Part shown: positions 2-28,346 of the stretch, piece after piece
Position numbering within the stretch: position 1 is the first letter of the stretch
Layout: the number at the start of each line of letters is the position of its first letter
Source of the DNA: a virus
IMG/VR virus record: IMGVR_UViG_3300020160_003218
Location: 1-32,195 of that record
Reading direction: 5' to 3' (one strand)
Length of the DNA: 32,195 nucleotides
Translations under genes and position numbers: made by a program
The notes under the pieces: generated by a model
What the model saw: only the letters and a program-made list of their open reading frames with translations
Told to the model about the DNA's origin: nothing
Database searches by the model: none

Positions 2-1162
2 TCTGAAAGTTTTGATAATGAAGATGAATTTGATGAAGATTTGATACTTTCATTAATGAAAGATAAAGGTTGGGGAGATTTAAGTTATGATAGAATTGAG
101 GATTTTAAGGATTCTAATTACTATAAAAATCCATTTGATGAAAATGAGTTTGCTGAACAATTTGATGATTACTTATCATTTGATGATGCTATGGATGATG
201 AATACCTAAACAATAAATCAGGGGAGGGAAGAGATATATATGATGATGATTTTGAAGAAGAATCAAATATTGATTTATCTATTGAATTGGAAAATAAATT
301 AAGAAGTCTTAATGATGATTCAGAATTAACAATAGATGACTTTTTAGAAGAATTTGGAGTTAATCTAAATAATATGACTGGTTTTGCCTGGGCATCAATA
401 TTAAAAAATGCCAAAAAGTATAAAGATATGTCAGATGAAGAGTTTAAAAGAGAGTATGACCAATATAAAAACTCTATAACTGAGAATAATAGTATGAGAT
501 ATTTGAAGAATTTCAAAGAATCTTATCAAGGTAGATGGTCTGAATCTTTAAAGTCAGAAGATGTTAAACAAATATATCCAATGGTTAAAAGAATCTTAGA
601 AATATATCCTGGTGAGTCTGGTGACTCAGAAGGAATTGTTGAAGAATTAGAAAGAAAGTTAAGAAACTATGATGACATAGTTAGAGAATATATCATTGAT
701 ACTTTAATGTTTGGTGATCCAGATATTTCATTTGATGAATTAGAAAGAAAAGTAATTGACTTAGGTGATAGAATCTATGATATGGGTACTGAGAGAAGAA
801 TGGTTATAGATGCCTTTGAAGATGCCTTTGAAGTTATTGGTAAACACTTTTATCTAACAGAAAGTAAGTATGAAGAAAATATATCAGTTATAATAGAAGC
901 AGGTGAAGGTAATGCATTTATAAAAAATAGATATGTTAATTTAGAAATTAATAGAAAATTAATGAAGATATTAAATAATCAATTTAATCTAAACTTCAAT
1001 GAACTTTCAGAAAAAAATAAAATTGAAAACTCAAAGGTTTCAGAAATATCTGATTTCTTATGTAAAATTGGTTTACATAAAAATGAAAGTAAATTAGATG
1101 ACAGAGTTAGATTAGTATTTAGTGGTAAATTAACATTAAAAGATATAAAAAAATTAAAATAA
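2..1162 (+). CDS. Acidic hypothetical protein, 5' end cut by window edge
   Basis: The frame is open from base 2, so the gene begins before the window; a TTG at 41 could be read as a start but nothing marks it as one. The product is very acidic in its first third (many Asp/Glu) and predominantly helical-looking and charged after that. At the ATG at 494 the frame reads MRYLKNFKES, which matches the recurring N-terminal motif of neighbouring proteins, so this may be a fusion or contain an internal start; no promoter-like sequence precedes that ATG. The stop TAA shares its last A with the ATG of the next gene, so the two are probably translationally coupled. I do not recognise a family and assign no function. 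Confidence 0.75.
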   Translation, partial: SESFDNEDEFDEDLILSLMKDKGWGDLSYDRIEDFKDSNYYKNPFDENEFAEQFDDYLSFDDAMDDEYLNNKSGEGRDIYDDDFEEESNIDLSIELENKLRSLNDDSELTIDDFLEEFGVNLNNMTGFAWASILKNAKKYKDMSDEEFKREYDQYKNSITENNSMRYLKNFKESYQGRWSESLKSEDVKQIYPMVKRILEIYPGESGDSEGIVEELERKLRNYDDIVREYIIDTLMFGDPDISFDELERKVIDLGDRIYDMGTERRMVIDAFEDAFEVIGKHFYLTESKYEENISVIIEAGEGNAFIKNRYVNLEINRKLMKILNNQFNLNFNELSEKNKIENSKVSEISDFLCKIGLHKNESKLDDRVRLVFSGKLTLKDIKKLK

Positions 1163-1524
1163 TGAAATACTTAAAATTATATGAAAACTTTACTAACCAA
1201 ACTCCTTTAGAAAGACAATTTTCAGAAGTTGTAGTTTCAGGACTTAATAATAATGATAGAGAGATAACAACATTCTGGGCAACATTTAATGCACTTAAAA
1301 TTGAAATAAAAGATTTTATTGATACAGAAGATAGTCTATATAAGGAGATGATGTATAGAATTGTTGATGACCAAGATCCTGTTGATGTGATGGAAAATAT
1401 TGTTAGTAGAATTGGTGAAAAAAGTACTGAAATGGAAAGATTATTAACAAAAATATCAGAAATTAATCCTTATAAATATAAGGAGCAAACATATTCCGAT
1501 GATGATGAACAAATGGAAATGTAA
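1162..1524 (+). CDS. Small protein with capsid-targeting-like N-terminus (MKYLKLYENF)
   Basis: A 120-residue acidic protein of unknown function. Its first ten residues match the MKxLKxFxE motif found on about a dozen unrelated proteins in this window; by analogy with the T4 internal proteins (MKTYQEFIAE) this could be a capsid-targeting peptide, which is inference. The rest is charged and probably helical, with an acidic tail (SDDDEQMEM). The start codon overlaps the preceding stop by one base (TAATG), and the next gene follows 25 bases later, so it sits in the middle of a four-gene operon running to 2472. Confidence 0.75.
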   Translation: MKYLKLYENFTNQTPLERQFSEVVVSGLNNNDREITTFWATFNALKIEIKDFIDTEDSLYKEMMYRIVDDQDPVDVMENIVSRIGEKSTEMERLLTKISEINPYKYKEQTYSDDDEQMEM

Positions 1525-1549
1525 TTTCTTAAAATAAAAATAAATAAAA

Positions 1550-1888
1550 ATGAAACACTTAAAAAAGTTTAATGAGAATACATTACCTAGAGAGTTCCAA
1601 ATAAAATCTATTGCAGGTGCTTTAAATAGCTATCAACATATTAGTATGACTGATGATAGAATGACCTTTGACTTCCATGTGAAAGAACAAGATAATATAG
1701 AAAAAAAATTGAAAGGTATTACTTGTAAAGAATTATATGAATTATATTTTATGTTAAATGAAAATGGTATAAAAAATTTAACTAGACTATTTTCATTTGT
1801 TTTTAATGATTTAGAAAAAGAACATAATAGTAATCCTGTATTAAACATTTGGGATTTAAGACAAATTAAAAAATTATATTTTAAATAA
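1550..1888 (+). CDS. Small protein with capsid-targeting-like N-terminus (MKHLKKFNEN)
   Basis: A 112-residue protein of unknown function starting MKHLKKFNENTLPREF. The FNE tripeptide resembles the (L/I)NE sites in the prohead protease and capsid protein, so the leader may be cut after E8 during head maturation (inference). No catalytic motif is visible. It lies in the same operon as its neighbours: its TAA stop shares an A with the ATG of the HExxH protein at 1888. Confidence 0.75.
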   Translation: MKHLKKFNENTLPREFQIKSIAGALNSYQHISMTDDRMTFDFHVKEQDNIEKKLKGITCKELYELYFMLNENGIKNLTRLFSFVFNDLEKEHNSNPVLNIWDLRQIKKLYFK

Positions 1889-2472
1889 TGAGACACTTAA
1901 AAAGATTTAATGAATCACTTGAAAAAAACTTCCCAGGTGAAATATCTATATCAGACTTTATAGATAAACTTAATGAAGGTAGAACACCACCACTTGGAGC
2001 AAGTAAAGAAACCATTATTTCTTGGTGGAGTCAAAATAGAAGTAATTTCAAAATACATTACTTTCCATTCAATACACAAAAACCTATTATGGGTTGTTTT
2101 GTTGGTACAGATAGAGTTTTAATTAACTCAACACCACCAGTTCCTGGAGATATTAAGTTTTTCATAGCTCTTCATGAATCAAGACATGCATTTCAAGAAG
2201 AAAATGGTGAGTTTACACCTAAATACTTTCAAACTGTTGTAGATGGTAATAAAGAAGAATTCTTACAGAACTATAAAGAACTTGAAGATGATGCTAATAC
2301 TTATGCAATTGATTCTTGTAGAACAATGGGATTTACACAAATAGTTAATATGGAGCGTATGTTAAGAAGTAATGAAAATATGGGAGAAGAAATCTATAGA
2401 ATGATGACTGATGATTTAGCTAAAACTAATGCTAGCACATTCTTTGAATTATTAGAAGGACAAATCCTATAA
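1888..2472 (+). CDS. HExxH putative zinc metalloprotease with capsid-targeting-like leader
   Basis: A 194-residue protein with a short leader MRHLKRFNES followed by a compact domain. Residues 96-100 read HESRH, an HExxH zinc site preceded by a hydrophobic stretch (FFIAL), and E133 in EDDANTYA, about 33 residues later, fits the third ligand of gluzincin-like proteases (ExxAxxxA). This supports a zinc-dependent peptidase, though the substrate is unknown. The leader matches the motif shared by other putative virion-internal proteins, so the enzyme may be packaged and injected (inference). It is the last gene of the operon; its stop lies just inside the reading frame of a damaged convergent gene. 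Family placement is uncertain but the motif is clear. Confidence 0.75.
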   Translation: MRHLKRFNESLEKNFPGEISISDFIDKLNEGRTPPLGASKETIISWWSQNRSNFKIHYFPFNTQKPIMGCFVGTDRVLINSTPPVPGDIKFFIALHESRHAFQEENGEFTPKYFQTVVDGNKEEFLQNYKELEDDANTYAIDSCRTMGFTQIVNMERMLRSNENMGEEIYRMMTDDLAKTNASTFFELLEGQIL

Positions 2473-5536: not shown

Positions 5537-5947
5537 TTATTTGATTATTTTTTTAAGCTTATAGTCTCTCAATAAGTCTGTCTTTGATAAACCATTATTT
5601 ATCAAAGTACTTACTTTATTCTCTAATTTATTGTTTAGGTATTCTTCAAGCAGGTCTGCCCATTTTTGTGTTAAGTCAATGTCTTCAATTACAACATCAT
5701 CCATATTAACATTAAGTTCAATACAATTGTTTCTACAATCTATTAGAATTTGAATTGAGTTATAACTACTATTATCAGTTAGTATTTGACCTGTTGAACT
5801 ATTTATAATAGTATCTGATTCTTTATTCTCTAAATAAAGATTTATTCCAAAGTGTCTAAATCCATATTTCATCTTTTTTGATACTTCTATTCTTTCATCT
5901 TCTATATTTTCATATAGAAATGTTAAAAACTCATCAATTTCATTCAT
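5537..5947 (-). CDS. Hypothetical protein upstream of uvsY
   Basis: A 136-residue acidic protein of unknown function beginning MNEIDEFLTFLYENIEDERIE. It has predicted beta strands in the middle (SIQILIDCRNNCIELNVNMDD) and a helical, lysine-rich end. No motif is recognised. It lies directly upstream of uvsY, so a role in recombination or replication is possible but unsupported. Its own promoter region is 5948..6030, where a TATATATAAT run lies about 50 bases before the ATG and after the terminator of the preceding operon. Confidence 0.65.
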   Translation of the reverse strand: MNEIDEFLTFLYENIEDERIEVSKKMKYGFRHFGINLYLENKESDTIINSSTGQILTDNSSYNSIQILIDCRNNCIELNVNMDDVVIEDIDLTQKWADLLEEYLNNKLENKVSTLINNGLSKTDLLRDYKLKKIIK

Positions 5948-6061: not shown

Positions 6062-6577
6062 TTAAAGTTCATGAGGATATAATTCTAAACTACCACCTTC
6101 TGGTCTATTAAGTTTATTATTAGTATTACCTGCTATAAAATCAAATACTTCTTCAATATCATCTTTAGAACTTGTAATGTGATCAGATGCCCAGTCATGT
6201 TCATTTAACATAGCATCAATTTCACCTCTATCCATTTGTAGTAATTCATCTACTAATCTTTTGATAGTTTCTAAATTAGAAAAGAACATATAATTACCTT
6301 CTTCTTGATGTTCTTTAAGACTTCTTAAAGTTTTAGCTAATTCCAATCTTCTTTTTTTTGTAGCATCTTTCTTGTCTAATTGAGTTCCAGGTTTTTTCTT
6401 ATCTTTATCTTTGGCTTTCAATTTAGATAATTCTTTTTCTATCTCAGTTTTAGTTATTTTCTCATCTTTACCTTTACCTAAAGACTTTTTTAAAGCACCT
6501 GGTTTCTTAATTGCATCTTGAATCCATTTATCTTTCTTTTCTTCATTAAATGATTCAAATGATTGTAACTTATCCAT
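6062..6577 (-). CDS. Basic virion-internal-type protein with leader MDKLQSFESFNEE
   Basis: A 171-residue protein. The leader MDKLQSFESFNEE matches the shared capsid-targeting-like motif, with a possible cut after FNE. Residues 15-75 are highly basic and read W-x2-AIKKPGALKKSLGKGK then a run of K/D, ending RRLELAKTLRSL; I recall this KPGALKKSLG segment as recurrent in large-phage proteins. The acidic C-terminal part (HDWASDHITSSKDDIEEVFDFI) is also a recurring phage module. A strongly basic middle fits DNA contact inside the head, which is inference. It is the last gene of a three-gene operon before the 6031 terminator. Confidence 0.75.
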   Translation of the reverse strand: MDKLQSFESFNEEKKDKWIQDAIKKPGALKKSLGKGKDEKITKTEIEKELSKLKAKDKDKKKPGTQLDKKDATKKRRLELAKTLRSLKEHQEEGNYMFFSNLETIKRLVDELLQMDRGEIDAMLNEHDWASDHITSSKDDIEEVFDFIAGNTNNKLNRPEGGSLELYPHEL

Positions 6578-6586
6578 TTTATTTGA

Positions 6587-6835
6587 TTATTTTTTGTTTA
6601 TTAATTCATACATACCATTAGATGATGGATATTGGTATTCACCTTTCTTTACTCCTTTAACAGAACCAACTTCTACTATCTGTGCTTCACTATCTCCAGT
6701 CTTTTTAAGTATCATTGGTTTATTTTCTTTATCATCTCCAAACATTTTATATTCATCACCAATTTCCATGTCTTTGAAAAGTGTTAAACTTTCATAAACT
6801 TTGTTAAATGATTCAAATGATTTTAACTTATTCAT
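6587..6835 (-). CDS. Small protein with capsid-targeting-like N-terminus (MNKLKSFESF)
   Basis: An 82-residue protein. The ATG at 6835 is chosen over an in-frame TTG 36 bases upstream because it gives the shared leader MNKLKSFESFNKVYES and because the upstream bases include the promoter-like TTAATATATA. The remainder, with EIGDEYKMFG and PMILKKTGDSEAQIVEVGSVKG, looks like a small beta-rich domain. The function is unknown. It lies between the GNAT-like gene and the basic protein, all with the same leader. Confidence 0.75.
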   Translation of the reverse strand: MNKLKSFESFNKVYESLTLFKDMEIGDEYKMFGDDKENKPMILKKTGDSEAQIVEVGSVKGVKKGEYQYPSSNGMYELINKK

Positions 6836-6873
6836 TTCTATTTTATTGTTTTTATATATATTAATATTCAAAA

Positions 6874-7386
6874 TTATCTTTTTACATAGAAAACATCAAC
6901 TCTATTATCATCTTCCATAAAGTAACCAATAAGTTTAGTTTTATTAAAATAGTTCATTGTTTCTTCCATACCATCATATTGTTGAATTGTTAGGAAATTC
7001 CAATCACTATTTTTAAGTTCATTTATCAGTTTATATGCTGCAAAACTTTTTCTATAATCAGGTAATATAACAAGTGCAACTCCTTCAATTCCTTTACCAC
7101 TTAAATCAACATCTTCTATTTGTTCCCAAGTATCATTAGATTTTAAATCATAAATTATAGAATCACCAATTAATAAAACACCAACTACATTACCATTTTC
7201 TTTAGCAATATATGAGTTATCAAAATCAACAACATCTTGCAAATACTCTAATGAGTCTTCATAAGGTAATTTGTCTTCAAATTGTTTAGCAACAATATCT
7301 TTAGCTATTTCAATATCATCACCTTGTATCTTAGATACAACAATATCTTCTCTATTTAACTCTTCAAATAATTTAATGTACTTCAT
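6874..7386 (-). CDS. GNAT-like acetyltransferase with capsid-targeting-like leader
   Basis: A 170-residue protein. After the leader MKYIKLFEELNRED, the order of elements resembles the GNAT fold: SYIAKENGNVVGVLLIGDS (strands 2-3), then GIEGVALVILPDYRKSFAAYKLINEL, where the V-x-L-x3-P-x-YR-x3 segment occupies the position of the acetyl-CoA binding loop and helix, then FLTIQQYDGMEETMNYFNKTKLIGY, resembling the C-terminal helix and strand. The Q/R-x2-G-x-G/A loop is imperfect (YRKSFAA), so activity is uncertain. With its leader it could be packaged and modify a host protein early, as T4 Alt does by ADP-ribosylation (inference). Confidence 0.6.
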   Translation of the reverse strand: MKYIKLFEELNREDIVVSKIQGDDIEIAKDIVAKQFEDKLPYEDSLEYLQDVVDFDNSYIAKENGNVVGVLLIGDSIIYDLKSNDTWEQIEDVDLSGKGIEGVALVILPDYRKSFAAYKLINELKNSDWNFLTIQQYDGMEETMNYFNKTKLIGYFMEDDNRVDVFYVKR

Positions 7387-14824: not shown

Positions 14825-14839
14825 AACTTCTCTTTTTTA
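14813..14839 (+). terminator. Rho-independent terminator between convergent genes
   Basis: The stem AGAGAAG / CTTCTCT is followed by TTTTTT. It overlaps the end of the 13898 gene and ends the plus-strand operon. Confidence 0.75.
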
Positions 14840-15163
14840 TATTAACTTATTAAGTAATAATTCTCTATTAACACTTTTTGTTATATGACCCAATACACCT
14901 TTTTCCAACTTATCTTGTATTTCATTCTTTTCATCATCTTGACAATGTTCATATCTATCTATAAGTTTATAATTTTCATTATACCAAGTATAAAACATAT
15001 CAATACAAATCTCCATAAAGTCTTCAAAATCATCATGTGATTCATATATAGCTCTTAATACAAGTATATCCATATCATAGAACTCTATAGCAAAATCACT
15101 ATTCCAACTTATATCAACAACAAAACCTAAATCAACTATCTTATCAAGATGTGTTTTAATCAT
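14837..15163 (-). CDS. Hypothetical acidic protein downstream of the capsid paralogue
   Basis: A 108-residue acidic protein with many aromatic residues (MFYTWYNENYKLIDRYEHC). No motif is recognised. Its start overlaps the end of the capsid paralogue by eight bases, so it is translationally coupled to it and probably made in the same amounts. Confidence 0.65.
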   Translation of the reverse strand: MIKTHLDKIVDLGFVVDISWNSDFAIEFYDMDILVLRAIYESHDDFEDFMEICIDMFYTWYNENYKLIDRYEHCQDDEKNEIQDKLEKGVLGHITKSVNRELLLNKLI

Positions 15164-15836
15164 TTAGTATATCATCTATTTTTTGATTCCTTAAATCTGA
15201 AATATATTTTAAGTAATTCTCAGTTCCCTTCTTATCAAGAACTCTACAAACTAAAGCACTATATTCTGAATACATATTAAAATCTATAAGAATCCTTGGA
15301 TGAAAAGTAGCCTCACTTACAATTTTATTTTCAATTATTTCAAGGTTTAACTTTAAATCATTTAATAATATCATTGTAGTATCATTATATCTCATATATG
15401 GATCTACATATAACTCAATATCTGATAAAAATCCTATATTATAAATATCAGCACCATTAATAATACTAGTATTCCAATTCATTGCTTTAAAATAAAATCT
15501 AGCATCATCTTGAATACAAGCAGCCAACATTCCATTTAATATACATTTACTATATCCTGAATCCATAATATAATCTATTAGTTCATTAGTTGCCAATCTA
15601 TCAAGTTCAATATCATTTACATACTTAGTTAAATCTAAATACTCATTTTTTGAATTATCAAGTATCTCACTAATACATTTTCTACTAATTGTTGAAGCAA
15701 TATCTTTTTCAATATGTTCTCTAATAAGTGAAAAATCATCAGAACTCATTTGAACAGATGTAGAGTATTTAGCAAAGTTTGTATTAACACTTTTATCCAA
15801 TGTTATAACATCACTCAACTTAATATCATTGAACAT
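15156..15836 (-). CDS. Half-length paralogue of the major capsid protein
   Basis: A 226-residue protein. The ATG at 15836 is chosen because it lies four bases after the Dam stop; codons further upstream overlap Dam. It matches the C-terminal part of the capsid protein encoded at 24367..26055: IEKDIASTISRKCISEI against LVNELSQTISKQIVAKI, then YVDPYMRYND, which is identical in both, then SEATFHPRILI against SEATFAPRMLL. The N-terminal half of the capsid protein, including the propeptide, is absent. It could be a minor capsid component (T4 gp24 is a known gp23 paralogue), a regulator of assembly or a decaying duplicate. The shared features are seen directly; the role is inference. Confidence 0.75.
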   Translation of the reverse strand: MFNDIKLSDVITLDKSVNTNFAKYSTSVQMSSDDFSLIREHIEKDIASTISRKCISEILDNSKNEYLDLTKYVNDIELDRLATNELIDYIMDSGYSKCILNGMLAACIQDDARFYFKAMNWNTSIINGADIYNIGFLSDIELYVDPYMRYNDTTMILLNDLKLNLEIIENKIVSEATFHPRILIDFNMYSEYSALVCRVLDKKGTENYLKYISDLRNQKIDDILND

Positions 15837-15840
15837 TTGA

Positions 15841-16830
15841 TTAATCTCTAAATGGATCCCATTCTGGTTCTGATTGCTGAACATCTGAATTAACATTTAT
15901 TTTTTCCCCAGTCTCAGGGTTGTAATTCATAATCAATAACTCAATACCTTTCTCTTTATCAACACCCTCTACTTTATTTTTAATTACTGCAGATGGTCTA
16001 TGAAACTCTTTTGAAGTCCAAAAGTATTCATCTTTAGGTAACAATTCTTCTAATAAAGGAAAGTAGTAATATGATAATGACCATCTACATTTAGATTTCT
16101 TTAATAACTCTAATAAACGTCTGTGTGAGGAAACTCCAAAGGTGTTCTCTGTGTCACATCCATACCAAAATAGTCTTCTACCATCATCATCATTTTTAAT
16201 GTCATTAAAACGAGCATAAGGTGGGTCTAAATACATATAAGTATCTTCTGCATCATGCATTGTAATAACTTCTTCAAAGTCTAAGTTATTAAACTCATTA
16301 ATATTCTGTAATCTTTCAGTATATTTATTTTTCTCTAATTTATTAATTAAAATCTGTAGATTTAATTTATTAGTTTTTTTCTTAAATCCAGTGAAACCTC
16401 CACCTCTTGGATAAACAGAACTAAAACTTGATGTAATTAAAAAGGCATAAATTGCACCTACTTTTAAGTCACCAATTTCAAAGTCCATATTATCTAAGAA
16501 ATCATTAGTAATGTAAGTTCTATAAATGGCTTTATAGAAATCCCATTTTTTATCTAATTCAGTTTCTGTGGTATATAGAAGTCCACCAAAATCCATTAGT
16601 TTTTTAAGCTCTACCAAAAACTCTTCTGGTCTTGAACAACATTGCATCAAATTAGCCTGATGTCTATTTCTATCATTAAAGATAACATTTTCAAATTCTA
16701 ATTTAGAATCTAAGTAAATTGCAAATGAACCAGAAAATGGTTCTACATAAGTTTTACAATCTTTTGGAATTATAGGTGTGATAAAGGATTGAAAGTTTGC
16801 CTTGCCCCCGAAATATGAAATTACTGACAT
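15841..16830 (-). CDS. dam: N6-adenine DNA methyltransferase, D12 class (Dam-like)
   Basis: A 329-residue methylase. Motifs are in the alpha order: YFGGK at 6-10, YVEPFSGSFAIYL at 28-40 (AdoMet-binding) and LDPPYARF with catalytic DPPY at 202-205. It methylates adenine, probably in a short palindrome such as GATC, which cannot be confirmed from sequence. In phages such enzymes protect the DNA from host restriction. It sits between a LAGLIDADG endonuclease gene four bases upstream and the capsid paralogue four bases downstream, all read from the minus strand. The C-terminal 30 residues are an extra polar tail. Confidence 0.9.
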   Translation of the reverse strand: MSVISYFGGKANFQSFITPIIPKDCKTYVEPFSGSFAIYLDSKLEFENVIFNDRNRHQANLMQCCSRPEEFLVELKKLMDFGGLLYTTETELDKKWDFYKAIYRTYITNDFLDNMDFEIGDLKVGAIYAFLITSSFSSVYPRGGGFTGFKKKTNKLNLQILINKLEKNKYTERLQNINEFNNLDFEEVITMHDAEDTYMYLDPPYARFNDIKNDDDGRRLFWYGCDTENTFGVSSHRRLLELLKKSKCRWSLSYYYFPLLEELLPKDEYFWTSKEFHRPSAVIKNKVEGVDKEKGIELLIMNYNPETGEKINVNSDVQQSEPEWDPFRD

Positions 16831-17715: not shown

Positions 17716-18222
17716 TTATTTCTTTGGAAATAGTACATCATAAAGATTAGGTTTCTTTGTACCATTTAATTCACTTCTAATTTCCATTAAAAGTTTACCT
17801 AATTTATTCTTACCTTTACCAGCACATTTTTCACAAGAACATTGACCCCAGTAAATATCATGCCAATAGTTACCTTCAATAATTGGAACATCACCAGTCA
17901 TTAGTAACATTTCTTTTAATTGAGTATCCTTGAACTTCTCATTAACTGCCCAAGTCATAAACTCTAATTTCTTAGAATCCCAGTCAGTTCTTATTTTAAT
18001 TTTTTGACCTATTTTCTTTACATGACCTGGACTTTTAATAGTTGCAATCATTTCTCTAAAATCTACAGGTGTATAATATACTCCATCAAATGTTTGATTA
18101 CTATTACATTTCATTGCAACATAGTAATGTTCTACTGATGGGTAAGTTATACCTTGGTGTTCTATTTTACAGGGGTAGAAGTTTGAAAGAAAACTATATC
18201 TACCATCAAATCTATTTATCAT
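17716..18222 (-). CDS. NADAR-family protein (YbiA/DUF1768-like)
   Basis: A 168-residue protein with the hallmarks of the NADAR family: FDGRYSFLSNFYPC at the N-terminus, then YPSVEHYYVAMK with conserved Glu31, and at the C-terminus EGNYWHDIYWGQC then GKNKLGKLLMEIR. Known members hydrolyse N-glycosidic bonds, and some remove ADP-ribose from guanosine in DNA. A phage copy could reverse DNA ADP-ribosylation by host DarT-type defence or act in NAD metabolism; this is inference. A CSCEKC cluster near residue 130 could bind metal. It is divergent from the 18254 gene. Confidence 0.85.
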   Translation of the reverse strand: MINRFDGRYSFLSNFYPCKIEHQGITYPSVEHYYVAMKCNSNQTFDGVYYTPVDFREMIATIKSPGHVKKIGQKIKIRTDWDSKKLEFMTWAVNEKFKDTQLKEMLLMTGDVPIIEGNYWHDIYWGQCSCEKCAGKGKNKLGKLLMEIRSELNGTKKPNLYDVLFPKK

Positions 18223-18253: not shown

Positions 18254-18727
18254 ATGAAATATTTAATAAAGTTTTTTGAATCATTTGGAAATCCAGATAT
18301 TAAAGAAGAGTTACAGAATTTTTGTAATGAAAATTTAGCATACTTAATAGATGAAGGATATGAAGTTAGAATAATATGGACACCAAATTGTTATGCCTGG
18401 AGAATAAAGTTTATTAAAACTGGACAAAAATATCCAGATTTAAAAAAAGTTGAGAGGTCCAAATCATTTTATTGGAGAGATATTAAAGATGATTTTATAC
18501 CATTCTTTGAAATGTTAGATACCAAATATGAAATATGTGGAACTTTTAATAAAGTATGGGTACCATCTTATCAAAAAGATGAAATAGATGAATTAGTTGT
18601 CGATTTTGAAACACCTAGATTTATTACTGAACATGCACACTTTTTTTATAAAAAAGAACAATTATTATCAGGTAAAACTACAAATAAAAAAATAAGTACT
18701 ATTACAATATATGTTAAATTAAAATAA
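18254..18727 (+). CDS. Hypothetical protein with capsid-targeting-like N-terminus (MKYLIKFFESF)
   Basis: A 157-residue protein. The leader MKYLIKFFESFGNPD matches the shared motif. The rest is aromatic-rich (FYWRDIKDDFIPFFEML, HAHFFYKKEQ) with alternating strands. No function is assigned. Its last nine bases overlap the end of the convergent RHH gene. A TTAATATATA box lies four bases before the ATG, predicting a leaderless transcript. Confidence 0.7.
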   Translation: MKYLIKFFESFGNPDIKEELQNFCNENLAYLIDEGYEVRIIWTPNCYAWRIKFIKTGQKYPDLKKVERSKSFYWRDIKDDFIPFFEMLDTKYEICGTFNKVWVPSYQKDEIDELVVDFETPRFITEHAHFFYKKEQLLSGKTTNKKISTITIYVKLK

Positions 18728-20084: not shown

Positions 20085-20738
20085 TTATTCAACATTTTCT
20101 TCAAACCACTTAAATACTAATTCTTTTGGGATAATATCACCATAGTATTCTTTATACTGAGCACCACCTTTTTTAATAACATAAGATGTATCATCACTAT
20201 TGATACTATCAAACATTTCTAAATAATCTTGTACACTTGCAAATTGTTGTCCTAATATACTAATTGAACCATCTTGATAGGCAATCATTTTATAGTCATT
20301 TGGATCAATTTCAACACCAAATAAATTACCAAAGTAAAGGTCTAATTTTTTCAATTCATTAAATTCAAATCTAATTGGTTCTTCACCTTCAATTTGAAGC
20401 AAAATATCATCAACTATAGTTACTTTTATATCAACTTCTTCAAACCAAGTATTAAATACCAATGTATCAGTATTATAAGTATTGAACTCTAATTCATTAG
20501 TATGAAGTAAATCATACTTATTCAATATTTTTTTAACTGCTAAAATAGTTTTTTTACCAGCATATCTATGTCTTGGTATAATATTTGTTTTTTGTTGATA
20601 ATAAGTTACTTTTCTTTCAGTTGGTAGTTTTTCCCAATCAACTTTACAAGCAGCGTCCAATACTCTCTTAGTATATCCTAAATCAACCCATTCTTCTTTA
20701 AAGTGTTCTTTCCAACCACCTGCACTAATATAGTACAT
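20085..20738 (-). CDS. C-terminal part of a frameshifted M20/M28-like peptidase
   Basis: This frame continues the peptidase begun at 21385 after a one-base loss. Aligned to the intact paralogue at 21785..23131, its start reads ISAGGWKEHFKEEWVD against ISVGYDHEHTFTEIQN, and VDWEKLPTERKV against VEWSKLPTIRKV. It therefore contributes the last metal-binding region plus a C-terminal domain of about 150 residues not well matched in the paralogue. The ATG at 20738 is unlikely to be a natural start. It ends at a weak hairpin just upstream of the tmRNA promoter. Confidence 0.6.
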   Translation of the reverse strand: MYYISAGGWKEHFKEEWVDLGYTKRVLDAACKVDWEKLPTERKVTYYQQKTNIIPRHRYAGKKTILAVKKILNKYDLLHTNELEFNTYNTDTLVFNTWFEEVDIKVTIVDDILLQIEGEEPIRFEFNELKKLDLYFGNLFGVEIDPNDYKMIAYQDGSISILGQQFASVQDYLEMFDSINSDDTSYVIKKGGAQYKEYYGDIIPKELVFKWFEENVE

Positions 20739-21385
20739 TCTGGTATAATATCTAAGAAAGTTGCAGTATCAGTATAATAAGCATTTGGATCTGGTTTTGA
20801 TTCAACTCCTAATTCTGTTAATTCATCAGAAAGTGCTTCTGCAAATTCTTGAGAACAACAATATCTTGCTTTTTGTCTTCTTACAACAGAACCTGTTTGT
20901 TTTCTATCAAATGCAACTGCTCTCTTAAATTGTTTAAAGAATTCTGGATTAGCTTCTAATGCATTTTGTGAACCCCATAAACCACCACTTAAAATTGGCT
21001 CTTCACCTAAGAAGAAGTAATAAGTACCTGGAATACCTCTTTCTATCATATTTAATAGAATAGTCATTCCTAATTTATTATCACCACCTAATATAGTAGT
21101 ACCATCAGTTTTAATAATATCTCCTTCAATAACATGGTTTACTTTTTCATATTTTTCACAATATGTATCTAAGTGTGTTGTAAATAAAGTTTCTGATTTA
21201 CCAACTTGAATATAGTAATTACCAATTGAATCTTTTTTATATCCAGTAGGTAAATATTTTTCTAATTTAGTTTCATGACCATATGGAATGGTATATTCTG
21301 TTAATTTTAAGAATAAATCTTTAAACTTATCTCCTGTTTCTTTTCTTTTGAATCTATTAAATAGACCTTCATTATTTTTATTCAT
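20678..21385 (-). CDS. N-terminal part of a frameshifted M20/M28-like metallopeptidase
   Basis: The 235-residue product carries most of the metal site: H71 and D73 in FTTHLDT, D102 in GGDNKLG, E128/E129 in FFLGEEP and YTDTATFLDIIPECT. These match the paralogue at 21785..23131 (SHLDT, GADDKAG, GEERGG, FTDSASFIDNIPECT). After ECT the frame departs into ILVQVVGKNTLKKNGLI and stops, while the expected TNIS sequence continues in the other frame. Inserting one A in ACTATATTAGT near 20732 would restore a single protein of about 430 residues. A true mutation or a sequencing error are both possible. TTAATATATT lies six bases before the ATG. Confidence 0.75.
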   Translation of the reverse strand: MNKNNEGLFNRFKRKETGDKFKDLFLKLTEYTIPYGHETKLEKYLPTGYKKDSIGNYYIQVGKSETLFTTHLDTYCEKYEKVNHVIEGDIIKTDGTTILGGDNKLGMTILLNMIERGIPGTYYFFLGEEPILSGGLWGSQNALEANPEFFKQFKRAVAFDRKQTGSVVRRQKARYCCSQEFAEALSDELTELGVESKPDPNAYYTDTATFLDIIPECTILVQVVGKNTLKKNGLI

Positions 21386-23140: not shown

Positions 23141-23533
23141 TTAATTTACTATTACTTCATGTGAGTTACCATAATCAACTCTTACCTGACCATCATTCAT
23201 ACCAGGTTGTTTTTTAACAAATTTTGCCTTACAATAGACTACTGTTGCTTTATCATCATCCTTTGCCTTACTATTAGCTTTAGCAATCTCAGCAACTCTT
23301 TTAATTACTTCTGGTGTAGGTAATTTTTCTCTAACTACAATTAACATATGACTACCTGGAACACCCTTTGTGTGCATCCAAATATCTGATTCTTTTGACA
23401 TATTAAATGTTAAATGATCATTAGATTTTGCATCACGACCCAAATATACAATAAATCCATCAATATCCAAAGTTTTTATGTTAGGAAATTTGTTTTTACT
23501 CTCATTAAATGATTTATATTTCTTAATTTTCAT
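23141..23533 (-). CDS. Stand-alone NFACT-R (DUF814) domain protein with leader
   Basis: A 130-residue protein. The ATG at 23533 is chosen because TTAATATATA-CATT precedes it and because it yields the leader MKIKKYKSFNES. Then follows a nearly complete NFACT-R domain: DGFIVYLGRDAKSNDHLTFN, DIWMHTKGVPGSHMLIV and ATVVYCKAKFVKKQPG, the most conserved blocks of the family. In RqcH and NEMF this domain contacts tRNA and RNA on rescued large ribosomal subunits. The FbpA, helical arm and zinc parts of those proteins are absent. A phage version may bind tRNA or stalled ribosomes. The leader suggests packaging. It heads the operon with the peptidases and precedes the tmRNA. Confidence 0.85.
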   Translation of the reverse strand: MKIKKYKSFNESKNKFPNIKTLDIDGFIVYLGRDAKSNDHLTFNMSKESDIWMHTKGVPGSHMLIVVREKLPTPEVIKRVAEIAKANSKAKDDDKATVVYCKAKFVKKQPGMNDGQVRVDYGNSHEVIVN

Positions 23534-24344: not shown

Positions 24345-24367
24345 TAATTAATTAATTAATTAATTAT
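24345..24367. repeat. TTAA/ATTA tandem tetranucleotide run
   Basis: Five to six consecutive copies of AATT lie between the terminator and the capsid stop codon. It is probably a slippage-prone spacer with no evident function. Confidence 0.6.
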
Positions 24368-26055
24368 TAGTTAAGTAATTGTGCAGCATCTGTAACAGTA
24401 ATTGTCATAAACTGTTTTTGCGGATACCACCCCACTTCTGCAACAGCATATCTTGATCTTAGTAACATTCTTGGAGCAAATGTAGCCTCAGAGATAACTG
24501 AGATAGATTGAGCCATAAGATAAGGCACAAAAATAATTCCAGGTTGGTCAGGGTTATTTTTTCTACCTAATACAATTCTGTTATCGTTATATCTCATGTA
24601 TGGATCAACATAGATAGAGATGTCTCCGATAGAACCAACTGGGTAAAGTTGACCTTGAGAGTTCATTTTAGATTTAACTGGGTTAATTGTGTAACCAGCA
24701 ATATCTTGTAATGCTGCAGCTAAACCTCCATTTGTGATTAAGTATTGAGCTGGTCCAACACGTCCTTCAGTTGCAATATAGTTAGAAGCGTGAGCAATTC
24801 TAGTTATAAGCTTTCTTTGAACAGCGTGAGTAGTCTCTCCACCTGGAGCACCATTACCTGTTGCATATGTAGTATCTAAATCAAAAATAGATGTAGAAGT
24901 TCCTGCTTTTGTAGGAGCAGATGTAGCATTTAAAGATCCCATTTCAAAGATTTTAGCAACAATTTGTTTAGAGATTGTTTGAGACAATTCATTAACAAGG
25001 ATTGATTCCATTTTTTGAACAATATCCATACCTGTGTTAGCTTTGATGTCTTCAATTTCAGTTCTTCTTAAAGCTGAAGATATTTCAATAGTACCAACTG
25101 CAATAGTTTTAGAAGAAATTTTTGGTCCAATAACACCTGAGTAAGATTGGTCATCTGCTAATCTATCCATTGGATAAGCACCTGCAGCAGAACCTGCTGG
25201 AGTTGTAGCCCAGTTTGCAGAGAAACCTGGAATATGATCTTCTAATGCAGAAATTAATTCAATTTTCTTATTTGCATTAGCTGTAGGTGTTACACCATTA
25301 AAACTTAGTATATAGTCTATAATTGCACCTGTTTGACCAAATGTATTTTTTGTAGCATCCCAAAAATTAGGAGTTGCAAAACTACCAGAAGTGTTTGCTT
25401 GTCTATATGCTTTAAACATTGGTAATCCATCAATTCTTGAAAATCCTAAAAATTCAACAATGTTTGTTTTAGTACCTGGTTCAGAAGTTAATTTAACTGT
25501 AGAAGATGCTGTAATTCCAAAGAAAAGTCTTCCACCAACTAATCCACCTTGTGTTTCAGTTATTGATGATGAAGTCATTGCCAATATAATTGCAGTTTTA
25601 ATTGCATCATTATTATCTGCAGTAAATTTAAAAACTTGTGGTCTTTCATTTGAATCTAAATCAATATCATCATATTGAAAATCAATATAAAGTAAGTCTA
25701 ATTTTGGACCTGGAGTTGGTTTTACAGCAACTAAGTCTAAACCAATTGTTTGAGCAGCAATTTTCATTGCAACTGGTAATAAGTTTTGACCAACATCACC
25801 TGAACCTGGAGTTCCTGTGTAAGCACCACCTAAGTTTGACCCTAAAGTTGTTCCTGCAGGACCACCCAATATTGGATTAACTACAGCTCCCATACCTGCT
25901 ACATTTGTAGCATTAACGTATGCATTTTCATTGATAGAGTGGAACTCAGCATATTCTGACATCCATTCAAGTCTATCACCTGAAACTCCCATGTTTTCCA
26001 ACACTGGAGACCATTTTTTCATGGCTTTTTGATTATCTATTCTAATTTGTGACAT
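24367..26055 (-). CDS. Major capsid protein (T4 gp23-like)
   Basis: A 562-residue precursor. The N-terminus (MSQIRIDNQKAMKKWSPVLE) corresponds to the gp23 start, and SINENAYVNATNVAGMG corresponds to the gp23 processing region (LTE followed by YNATNIA). Cleavage is predicted after E43. Downstream landmarks include MESILVNELSQTISKQIVAKI, YVDPYMRYND near 481 and SEATFAPRMLL near 525. It forms the hexameric shell of the head. The gene has its own promoter region and a strong terminator, and is read just after the protease-scaffold gene. A half-length paralogue lies at 15156..15836. Confidence 0.9.
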   Translation of the reverse strand: MSQIRIDNQKAMKKWSPVLENMGVSGDRLEWMSEYAEFHSINENAYVNATNVAGMGAVVNPILGGPAGTTLGSNLGGAYTGTPGSGDVGQNLLPVAMKIAAQTIGLDLVAVKPTPGPKLDLLYIDFQYDDIDLDSNERPQVFKFTADNNDAIKTAIILAMTSSSITETQGGLVGGRLFFGITASSTVKLTSEPGTKTNIVEFLGFSRIDGLPMFKAYRQANTSGSFATPNFWDATKNTFGQTGAIIDYILSFNGVTPTANANKKIELISALEDHIPGFSANWATTPAGSAAGAYPMDRLADDQSYSGVIGPKISSKTIAVGTIEISSALRRTEIEDIKANTGMDIVQKMESILVNELSQTISKQIVAKIFEMGSLNATSAPTKAGTSTSIFDLDTTYATGNGAPGGETTHAVQRKLITRIAHASNYIATEGRVGPAQYLITNGGLAAALQDIAGYTINPVKSKMNSQGQLYPVGSIGDISIYVDPYMRYNDNRIVLGRKNNPDQPGIIFVPYLMAQSISVISEATFAPRMLLRSRYAVAEVGWYPQKQFMTITVTDAAQLLN

Positions 26056-26150: not shown

Positions 26151-28346
26151 TTATACTCTTCTAAATCTTTCCATAATCATAGAAACTTCATTATCAGATA
26201 GTTTATCCTCTTGGATTAAACCTTCATGAGCTACAAGTTTTTTAGTTACAGTTTCATTAGTTTTGATATTTCTAGTTCCCCAGAAATGCTCAATTTGATT
26301 TTCAGTTCTTAAAACTTCTTCTGGATATAATCTAGCTTGTGATAAGACAGATTTTTTAGCAGATTCATTTAAAGTACCCCAGATTGGCTTAATGTTATCA
26401 GGCATCAATCTGATTACTCTTTCTTCAAGAGTTTCGTTTTTAGTTGCTAATGACTCTGAAATCAAAGTAAGAACTTCTTTCTGTGTAAAATAACTACTCT
26501 CGTTTATGTGTAGTTTAACAGTATCTTGTTCTTCATCTGATAGAGCATAAAAACTATCAACTTGTGATTTGTTTAAGAACTTTAAAAAGTTCAAATCACT
26601 GCTTTCAGAAACTTTACGTTTTTTAGCTTCTTCAATTAATTTATTAATAGATTCAGAAAGTTCAGAGTCATCTTGTCCTCCAAATTCTTCTTCATGTGTA
26701 AATTCTTCACCTTCGTGTCCTTCACCTTCGTGTCCTTCACCTTCGTGTCCTTCACCTTCGTGTCCTTCACCTTCGTGTCCTTCAGCAAATTCTGCAGCAT
26801 CTTGTGCAAACTCTTCGGCTTCTTCTGCAAACTCTTTAGCTTCTTCAGCAAAGTCACTATGTCCTTCTTCTCCAGTAAATTCTTCACCTTCTTCTTCCTC
26901 TTGTGATTCAAATCCAGCATCTTCAATAGATGGGAATTGACCTTCTTCTTCACCAAATCCTTCATTTAATTTACCAAATGAGTTTAGTTTCTCAACTATC
27001 ATTCCTTGGTAAGAAATAGATTTGTCTAAGTTTTCAGCAACATATTCAGAGTAAGCAATATTATCATCTAAATGTTCAGCAATGTATTCAGAGTAAGCAA
27101 TGTTACCTTCAACATGTTCTGCTAAGTATTCAGAGTAAGCAATAGAGTTATCAACTGACTCAGCAATGTATTCAGAGTAAGCAATGTTTTTGTCTAAGTT
27201 TTCAGCAATGTATTCAGAGTAAGCAATATTTTTGTCTAAGTTTTCAGCTAAATATTCTGAATACTCAATATTTTTGTCTAAGTTTTCAGCTAAATATTCT
27301 GAGTAAGAAATGTTTTTATCTAAGTTTTCAGCAATATATTCTGAGTAGTTGATATTTTTGTCTAAGTTTTCAGCTAAATATTCTGAATACTCAATATTTT
27401 TATCTAAATTCTCAGCTAAATATTCTGAATAGTTGATAGCCTTTTCTAAGTTCTCAGCTAAATAGTCATTGTGTTTAGCCAATTTTGTAGTAGTTTCTTT
27501 TAATGATTTGTTTTCATTAACTACTACTTGAATTTTGTCTGCTAAATAATCTAAATATTTAGCAACTTGTGAGTTAGTTCCATTTAACTCTTCATAATAC
27601 TCAAGTAATTGCTCTAATTTCTTAGCAGGCATATTACCTTTTGTAATTGCACTATTTACTACTTTCTTAGTAGATGCAATCTCATTAACTAAATAGTTTG
27701 AATAATCAGTTAACTGTTGTTTTGTTACAAAGTCATTGTTGTTCATTTTGAATAATTCGTTCATTTTGGACTCGTCAGACATCTCATATATCCTAAAGTT
27801 ATTTTTTTCAATTTGTCCATCAGTACAATAACCTAAAGATTCATTCAATACTTTTACACTCATTTTTGCAGATGCAAATCCTGGATCAGCAACAATGTCA
27901 TATGTAAAAAGTTTTTTTAATGATACTGAACCATCAGATTCAGTAATACCTGCAGCTCTTGAAGATACAAAAACAGGACATCCATCATTAACTAATGCCT
28001 TTGCTTCTTTTCCCCAATATGTACTTAACAATTTGATTTCTCCTTCAACTGTGTTCTTTTCAGAAACATATTCAGCTTTGGTGATGATGTGAGATGCTCT
28101 TGACAATGAGGTATCAAAAACATCTGGGTGATCAAACTCACCAAAAACAGCACCTAAGCTGCTCATTCTTTCATTCAATTCTGCTAATGCGGGCAAAAAC
28201 TTTTCAGCAGTGTATATTCTCTCATTACGATTTTTAACACCAAACTCTGTAAAAGTACCATTAAGGATAAAATCCTGGTTACCTGTAGAAGCACTCTCTC
28301 TTACAAGAGAATTAGTTGAATTTTCTACTATTAAAACTGGTTTCAT
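26151..28346 (-). CDS. Prohead protease fused to head scaffold (gp21-gp22-like)
   Basis: A 731-residue protein. Residues 1-165 are a gp21-type serine protease: KNRNERIY, catalytic H73 in GEFDHPD and S128/S129 in PVFVSSRAAG, with GFASAKM at the end. Residues 166-170 (VLNE-S) are a likely self-cleavage point. Residues 292-447 are eleven tandem 14-residue repeats of the type YSEYLAENLDKNIx, a coiled-coil rod. Residues 463-560 are very acidic with five GHEGE repeats, and 560-731 form a C-terminal domain. In T4 protease (gp21) and scaffold (gp22) are separate genes, so this is a fusion. Further (L/I)NE sites at 460-462, 614-616 and 659-661 could let the core be degraded after assembly. Confidence 0.85.
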   Translation of the reverse strand: MKPVLIVENSTNSLVRESASTGNQDFILNGTFTEFGVKNRNERIYTAEKFLPALAELNERMSSLGAVFGEFDHPDVFDTSLSRASHIITKAEYVSEKNTVEGEIKLLSTYWGKEAKALVNDGCPVFVSSRAAGITESDGSVSLKKLFTYDIVADPGFASAKMSVKVLNESLGYCTDGQIEKNNFRIYEMSDESKMNELFKMNNNDFVTKQQLTDYSNYLVNEIASTKKVVNSAITKGNMPAKKLEQLLEYYEELNGTNSQVAKYLDYLADKIQVVVNENKSLKETTTKLAKHNDYLAENLEKAINYSEYLAENLDKNIEYSEYLAENLDKNINYSEYIAENLDKNISYSEYLAENLDKNIEYSEYLAENLDKNIAYSEYIAENLDKNIAYSEYIAESVDNSIAYSEYLAEHVEGNIAYSEYIAEHLDDNIAYSEYVAENLDKSISYQGMIVEKLNSFGKLNEGFGEEEGQFPSIEDAGFESQEEEEGEEFTGEEGHSDFAEEAKEFAEEAEEFAQDAAEFAEGHEGEGHEGEGHEGEGHEGEGHEGEEFTHEEEFGGQDDSELSESINKLIEEAKKRKVSESSDLNFLKFLNKSQVDSFYALSDEEQDTVKLHINESSYFTQKEVLTLISESLATKNETLEERVIRLMPDNIKPIWGTLNESAKKSVLSQARLYPEEVLRTENQIEHFWGTRNIKTNETVTKKLVAHEGLIQEDKLSDNEVSMIMERFRRV
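26706..26783 (-). repeat. 15-base tandem repeats encoding GHEGE
   Basis: About five copies of CTTCGTGTCCTTCAC (plus strand) encode GHEGE units within the scaffold. Identity between copies is nearly perfect, pointing to recent expansion or slippage. Confidence 0.85.
27006..27473 (-). repeat. 42-base tandem repeats encoding a 14-residue coiled-coil unit
   Basis: About eleven copies encode YSEY(L/I)AENLDKNIx. The DNA copies differ at synonymous sites more than the protein does, so the peptide pattern is under selection. The unit equals two heptads, consistent with a rod of fixed length. Confidence 0.85.

Follow-up and report, generated by a model that had tools for sequence, protein, structure and literature searches.

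A half-length, C-terminally tagged paralogue of the gp23-type capsid protein, possibly a non-lattice capsid mimic, in a relative of huge phages

We analyzed a 32-kb virus record (32,195 nucleotides; the window), in which a half-length relative of the major capsid protein is encoded just behind a Dam-type methyltransferase gene. The genes that frame this locus are as follows.

14837-15163, minus strand: coupled 108-aa gene, ending in the same type of tag (VNRELLLNKLI), with an 8-nt overlap with the half paralogue
15156-15836, minus strand: half-length capsid paralogue, coding sequence of 226 aa (ORF call, BLASTP, fold)
15841-16830, minus strand: D12-class (Dam-type) adenine methyltransferase, immediately upstream, a syntenic anchor (PF02086, E 1.4e-21)
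17716-18222, minus strand: NADAR-domain gene, a syntenic neighbor (PF08719, E 7.9e-25)
24367-26055, minus strand: major capsid protein of gp23 type, the parent fold, homologous part at about residues 316-545 (PF07068, E 8e-30)
26151-28346, minus strand: head maturation protease with coiled, scaffold-like repeats (phrog_207, E 1.4e-29)

The half paralogue starts 4 nt past the Dam stop codon and runs 8 nt into the next small gene, an arrangement that the sequence-only reading of this DNA had described correctly, together with a separation from the capsid gene that it put at 9 kb and that we find to be about 8.5 kb. An alternative in-frame ATG at 15896 would lengthen the product to 246 aa and overlap Dam. 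Elsewhere in the window, the head protease carries, in one chain, EGHEGE repeats and long coiled repeats of the SEYLAENLDKNI type, as if protease and scaffold had been fused into one protein. Where the close relative L001 has a single intact peptidase-like ORF of 432 aa, the window has two overlapping ORFs that match it (20085-21385; 235 and 217 aa); the peptidase-like gene thus looks split here.

BLASTP aligns the half paralogue with the 562-aa capsid protein of the window at 35% identity over 95 aa (E 5e-14). Both motifs that had first suggested the relationship, YVDPYMRYND and SEATFxPR, lie inside this alignment. A profile-profile comparison of eight half-paralogue homologues with six capsid proteins extends the match to 156 aligned columns (E 1.5e-18), stretching upstream through the spine helix, with the TISxxxxxxI block that had also been claimed as common to the two proteins, as far as the last P-domain strand. 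The half paralogue is truly paralogous to the gp23-type capsid protein, the match being far beyond chance. All alignments begin at the strand preceding the spine helix, and what is absent is the N-terminal half of the capsid protein, that is, the propeptide (its loss, too, had been noticed at the outset), the N-arm, and the E-loop. The half paralogue matches neither PF07068, the Gp23 model, at E up to 1 nor any other Pfam family above threshold; PADLOC gives no hit, and a search of PDB sequences returned nothing useful.

AlphaFold (AF2), supplied with an alignment of seven half-paralogue homologues, yields a model with a mean pLDDT of 80.7 and a pTM of 0.78. A strand at residues 22-29 comes first in it. 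The long helix at 35-61 then leads to the A-domain elements, which span 64-144, and a long beta hairpin at 154-200 precedes the C-terminal helix (206-225). The parts correspond to the window as listed here.

15654-15734, minus strand: P-domain spine helix, residues 35-61, containing TISRKCISEI (AF2; aligned to the capsid helix)
15381-15599, minus strand: A-domain core, residues 80-152, containing YVDPYMRYND (BLASTP and profile alignment, AF2)
15237-15377, minus strand: P-domain long beta hairpin, residues 154-200, containing SEATFHPR (BLASTP, AF2)
15159-15191, minus strand: C-terminal tag RNQKIDDILND, the end of the new C-terminal helix (tag also on homologues)

The PDB matches listed by Foldseek for this model are HK97-fold shells, T4 gp23 (5vf3) and gp24 (1yue) ranking second and third (E 1.4e-5, TM-score of about 0.5 over the query), and a viral structure library concurs on an HK97-type fold. 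A predicted fold unrelated to HK97-type capsids, which would have spoken against the sequence-only reading, was thus not obtained. The model confidently predicts an HK97-type core in which the spine helix, the A-domain, and the P-sheet are kept. Relative to T4 gp23 and gp24 (PF07068), which have the same HK97-type core, the half paralogue, homologous to the gp23-type capsid protein of the window, retains only the part behind the E-loop, adds a C-terminal tag helix, and escapes the Pfam Gp23 model. The viral library also returned a few small uncharacterized proteins, among them one of 164 aa from Pseudomonas phage Noxifer, which we record as leads only.

The C-terminal helix (residues 206-225) has no counterpart in the capsid protein. 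Its end, LRNQKIDDILND, fits a lineage-specific tag, R[DNE]xK[IL][DN]x[IL]L, which also closes the coupled 108-aa gene and one further gene of the window.

5537-5947, minus strand: 136-aa unrelated protein with the same tag (LLRDYKLKKIIK), the third tagged gene of the window (tag pattern)

Three tagged genes compare with 0.004 expected. The tag ends 65 of 923 gene-like ORFs in the huge phage LR745206 (0.3 in shuffled proteins) and, in the portions covered, 39 of 581 ORFs in LR756502 and 9 of 269 in a 476-kb IMG/VR relative. The same motif emerges when residue triplets at the C-termini are searched without bias: R..KI, for example, occurs in 71 proteins, compared with 6 for mid-protein controls. 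Most tags finish 0-2 residues before the stop codon, and every complete post-Dam half paralogue inspected carries one, in a single case in variant form. A slightly wider pattern finds 84 tagged proteins in LR745206; since the 81 that are long enough to compare after trimming of the tag form 80 similarity clusters, their bodies are unrelated, and in LR756502 the 45 trimmed proteins form 45 clusters. Paralogy is thereby ruled out as the explanation of the tag in these two genomes. It does contribute to the count in LR756504, where there are repeated families among the tagged genes.

Other lineages carry other motifs. The window-type tag was not found in LR756501 (735 kb; loci L087-L123), which has DPYGEE[NDE]W/DPYGEExW instead, with 109 occurrences in ORFs; in 41 cases the C-terminus is no more than 10 residues away, and the other copies are internal or closely follow an N-terminal targeting-like start. 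This motif shows synonymous codon variation. Because third codon positions vary and DPYGEE also stands N-terminally and internally, a DNA-level signal is ruled out. In the first 400 kb of LR756504 (loci L156-L175) a C-terminal RKxxIxxL closes about 61 small proteins, many of them in tandem arrays of related genes. No tag appeared in the sampled parts of T4, Lak-B1, PTm1, isolate MA9V-1, and LR756500, and a literature search for DPYGEE gave a single match, an unrelated yeast paper.

Two known kinds of terminal signal invite comparison. T4-type capsid-targeting sequences are short N-terminal signals on many unrelated small phage proteins; the present tag is C-terminal instead and is under-represented on proteins with an N-terminal targeting-like start, such starts being rarer among tagged proteins in two relatives (p 0.015 and 0.005). 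Encapsulin cargo-loading peptides, by which proteins are directed to an HK97-fold shell, are likewise short and C-terminal; the likeness is one of size and position, no sequence match being shown. The tag could also mark something unrelated, such as proteins destined for turnover. Many small proteins of the window (1162-2472, 6062-7386, 18254-18727, and 23141-23533) have an MKxLKxFExF start that resembles the T4-type targeting sequences.

Among annotated phages, the closest to the window are LR745206 (635 kb) and LR756502 (642 kb), and LR756501 and LR756503 (735 kb) and LR756504 (636 kb) are more distant relatives. The five genomes above 634 kb in a survey of huge phages form the Mahaphage clade, with predicted Bacteroidetes hosts (PMC7162821), and we infer that the LR relatives of the window belong to it. 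Half-paralogue homologues are present both in IMG/VR and in huge-phage records. About nine phages share an order on one strand that runs from the protease through the capsid gene, an NFACT-R-like gene, a peptidase-like gene, another gene, NADAR, and Dam to the half paralogue and the small gene, some of these loci being interrupted by an extra small gene or a homing endonuclease. The half paralogue is present in 16 of the 48 capsid-bearing loci that have at least 8 kb of downstream sequence, a count in which some contigs are near-duplicates. Where it is missing, the Dam-neighbor genes and their tags remain, and small tagged genes usually follow Dam directly, so that the half paralogue is an optional insert in a variable stretch.

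The gene is intact and under purifying selection, yet its divergence far outpaces that of the capsid protein. Identity between the window and LR745206 is 27% for the half paralogue, 74% for the capsid protein, 67% for Dam, and 79% for the protease; in the comparison with the nearest relative, the half paralogue reaches 61%, the capsid protein 85%, and the small gene 87%. The frame is open and its length conserved in many phages, with a dN/dS of 0.20-0.24 among close relatives, so that the clear decay in relatives that would have counted against the sequence-only reading is not seen. The combination of fast change and intactness is therefore unlike that of a part obliged to fit a conserved shell. 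In LR756500, capsid-like proteins of 313 and 209 aa, both untagged, are encoded at 246965-248533 among replication genes, between those for DNA polymerase and a UvsX-type recombinase; since the 313-aa relative of the half paralogue stands among replication genes and lacks the tag, its role there may differ.

The half paralogue is one of many capsid-derived pieces. A capsid profile search detects partial capsid proteins scattered through the genomes of the relatives, covering N-terminal, E-loop-region, spine-helix, A-domain, and C-terminal segments. By a test that used lenient tag patterns and in which several fragments are weak matches, the local tag is over-represented on these pieces in LR745206 (p 0.002), LR756502 (p 0.013), the 476-kb relative (p 0.001), and LR756501 (p 0.003); the fragments of LR756504 show no such enrichment. 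The tagged proteins of LR756501 also include pieces resembling the head protease and the product, perhaps the portal, of a gene immediately upstream of the protease gene.

We propose, at a probability of roughly 45%, that the half paralogue is an accessory capsid mimic that stays out of the lattice and bears a docking tag, most likely a decoy or antagonist and not a shell subunit. A gp23-type capsid gene would have been duplicated, and the copy would have shed propeptide, N-arm, and E-loop and acquired a C-terminal helix. The product, adopting the P- and A-domain core of HK97, would still display capsid-type surfaces, and it should not tile into a lattice without the N-arm and E-loop that link HK97 subunits. 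The tag should dock it to a partner or place common to dozens of small proteins. Brought to that shared site, the decoy might occupy whatever recognizes or assembles the capsid protein, be it a sensor of capsids in the host or the heads of a rival phage. The loss of the lattice-forming parts with retention of the surfaces, the optional presence and rapid evolution of the gene, and the shared tag all favor an accessory mimic over a shell subunit. Capsid proteins are known triggers of bacterial immunity: newly made capsid protein activates CapRel bacterial immunity (PMC9712102), and the Gol region of gp23 promotes cleavage of EF-Tu by Lit (PMC3014915). The Dam and NADAR neighbors would suit a counter-defense stretch.

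The sequence-only reading, to which neither the tag nor the wider set of capsid-derived pieces was visible, had offered three roles, a minor shell component, an assembly modulator, and an interference decoy, and in our best reading the last is more likely than modulation of the phage's own head, with a minor shell subunit the least likely of the three. A vertex or minor shell protein like T4 gp24 would agree with the HK97-type fold, with best PDB matches that include gp24 and gp23, and with a place in the head-gene region; it is very unlikely in view of the missing propeptide, N-arm, and E-loop, of a tag common to dozens of small unrelated proteins, of the optional presence of the gene within the clade, and of a divergence much faster than that of the capsid protein that would have to accommodate it. 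An essential shell role, in particular, is argued against by this optional presence and fast evolution. Modulation of head assembly has more in its favor, although we consider it unlikely. The protein would transiently engage capsomers, scaffold, or portal and so control head size, nucleation, or fidelity, in the manner of satellite-encoded capsid homologues. In its favor, the syntenic relatives have the gene on the strand of the capsid gene and about 5-9 kb downstream of it, and there is a precedent in Ccm of SaPIbov5, a capsid homologue of 24% identity that redirects capsid assembly and makes no capsids alone (PMC8569155). Like the half paralogue, the Ccm of PICIs is a diverged capsid homologue distinct from the major capsid protein, and by analogy a similar redirection can be envisaged for the phage's own heads or for those of a rival. 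Ccm, however, is a complete HK97 protein that has its N-arm and E-loop, sits in pentamers, and is encoded by a satellite (PMC8569155), whereas the half paralogue is phage-encoded, truncated, and tagged and has neither arm nor loop. The gene is also absent from many relatives with similar capsid proteins, and its divergence far exceeds that of the capsid protein.

The HK97 core might instead have been co-opted for work that has nothing to do with capsids, with its location set solely by the tag, as in the other tagged small proteins. The unrelated bodies of most tagged proteins, the relative between DNA polymerase and UvsX in LR756500, and a drift to about 27% identity within the half-paralogue family would all fit, and we judge this slightly less probable again than modulation of the phage's own head. 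The DPYM motif is retained, however, and since several different capsid segments (and, in LR756501, protease-like ones) occur as small, often tagged proteins, a capsid-related purpose is indicated. Functionless decay of a capsid duplicate, or a chimera, would account for a truncated, divergent gene that is one among many partial capsid copies; the dN/dS, the open frame of conserved length in many phages, and the conserved position and C-terminal tag lead us to reject it as having almost no chance of being right. T4 Inh, a minor head protein annotated as an inhibitor of the prohead protease, is likewise encoded in the head region and also has 226 aa. Inh resembles neither T4 gp23 nor gp24, whereas the half paralogue is clearly paralogous to gp23; Inh is thus probably not an analogue, and the equal length is probably a coincidence.

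Truncated, tagged HK97 cores of this kind make testable the idea that phage capsid look-alikes blind capsid-sensing immunity or poison rivals. More broadly, we give about even odds to the view that terminal tags serve Mahaphage-type phages as a lineage-specific address system spanning the proteome (RDxKIDxIL in the clade of the window, RKxxIxxL in LR756504, and DPYGEExW in LR756501) into which capsid mimics derived from head genes are wired, the half paralogue being a well-conserved member of that set. In the literature searched, which took in few subscription journals and preprints, we came across neither a report of truncated HK97 cores that persist as distinct genes, tagged and under selection, nor one of such a terminal tag system. 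The tag system may prove a larger discovery than the half paralogue itself, as tags that differ by lineage offer a simple sequence handle on how phages of 600-700 kb may sort or recruit many small proteins.

Three further groups of proteins with capsid-like segments were observed. One, a family of about 145-180 aa, combines the capsid propeptide with a Gol-like region and an internal NRDxKIDxI tag, and some members have a basic tail.

LR745206:291407-291877, LR756502:315773-316267, L081:4736-5212, and L065:10626-11159: members of the propeptide/Gol-like family

Another conserved family, with members of about 250 aa, has weak homology to the capsid A-domain and a tag-like stretch near the N-terminus; its AF2 model is poor (pLDDT 42) and was set aside.

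L003:18542-19291, L014:15639-16412, L015:19999-20724, L017:15475-16248, and L018:15102-15872, minus strand: members of the A-domain-like family of about 250 aa

The third group shares a glycine-rich GMGxV...GSGD segment with the capsid N-terminus and possibly belongs to a protease or packaging module.

LR745206:554787-555284, L072:3906-4421, L082:4100-4627, and L080:3556-4203: proteins with the GMGxV...GSGD segment
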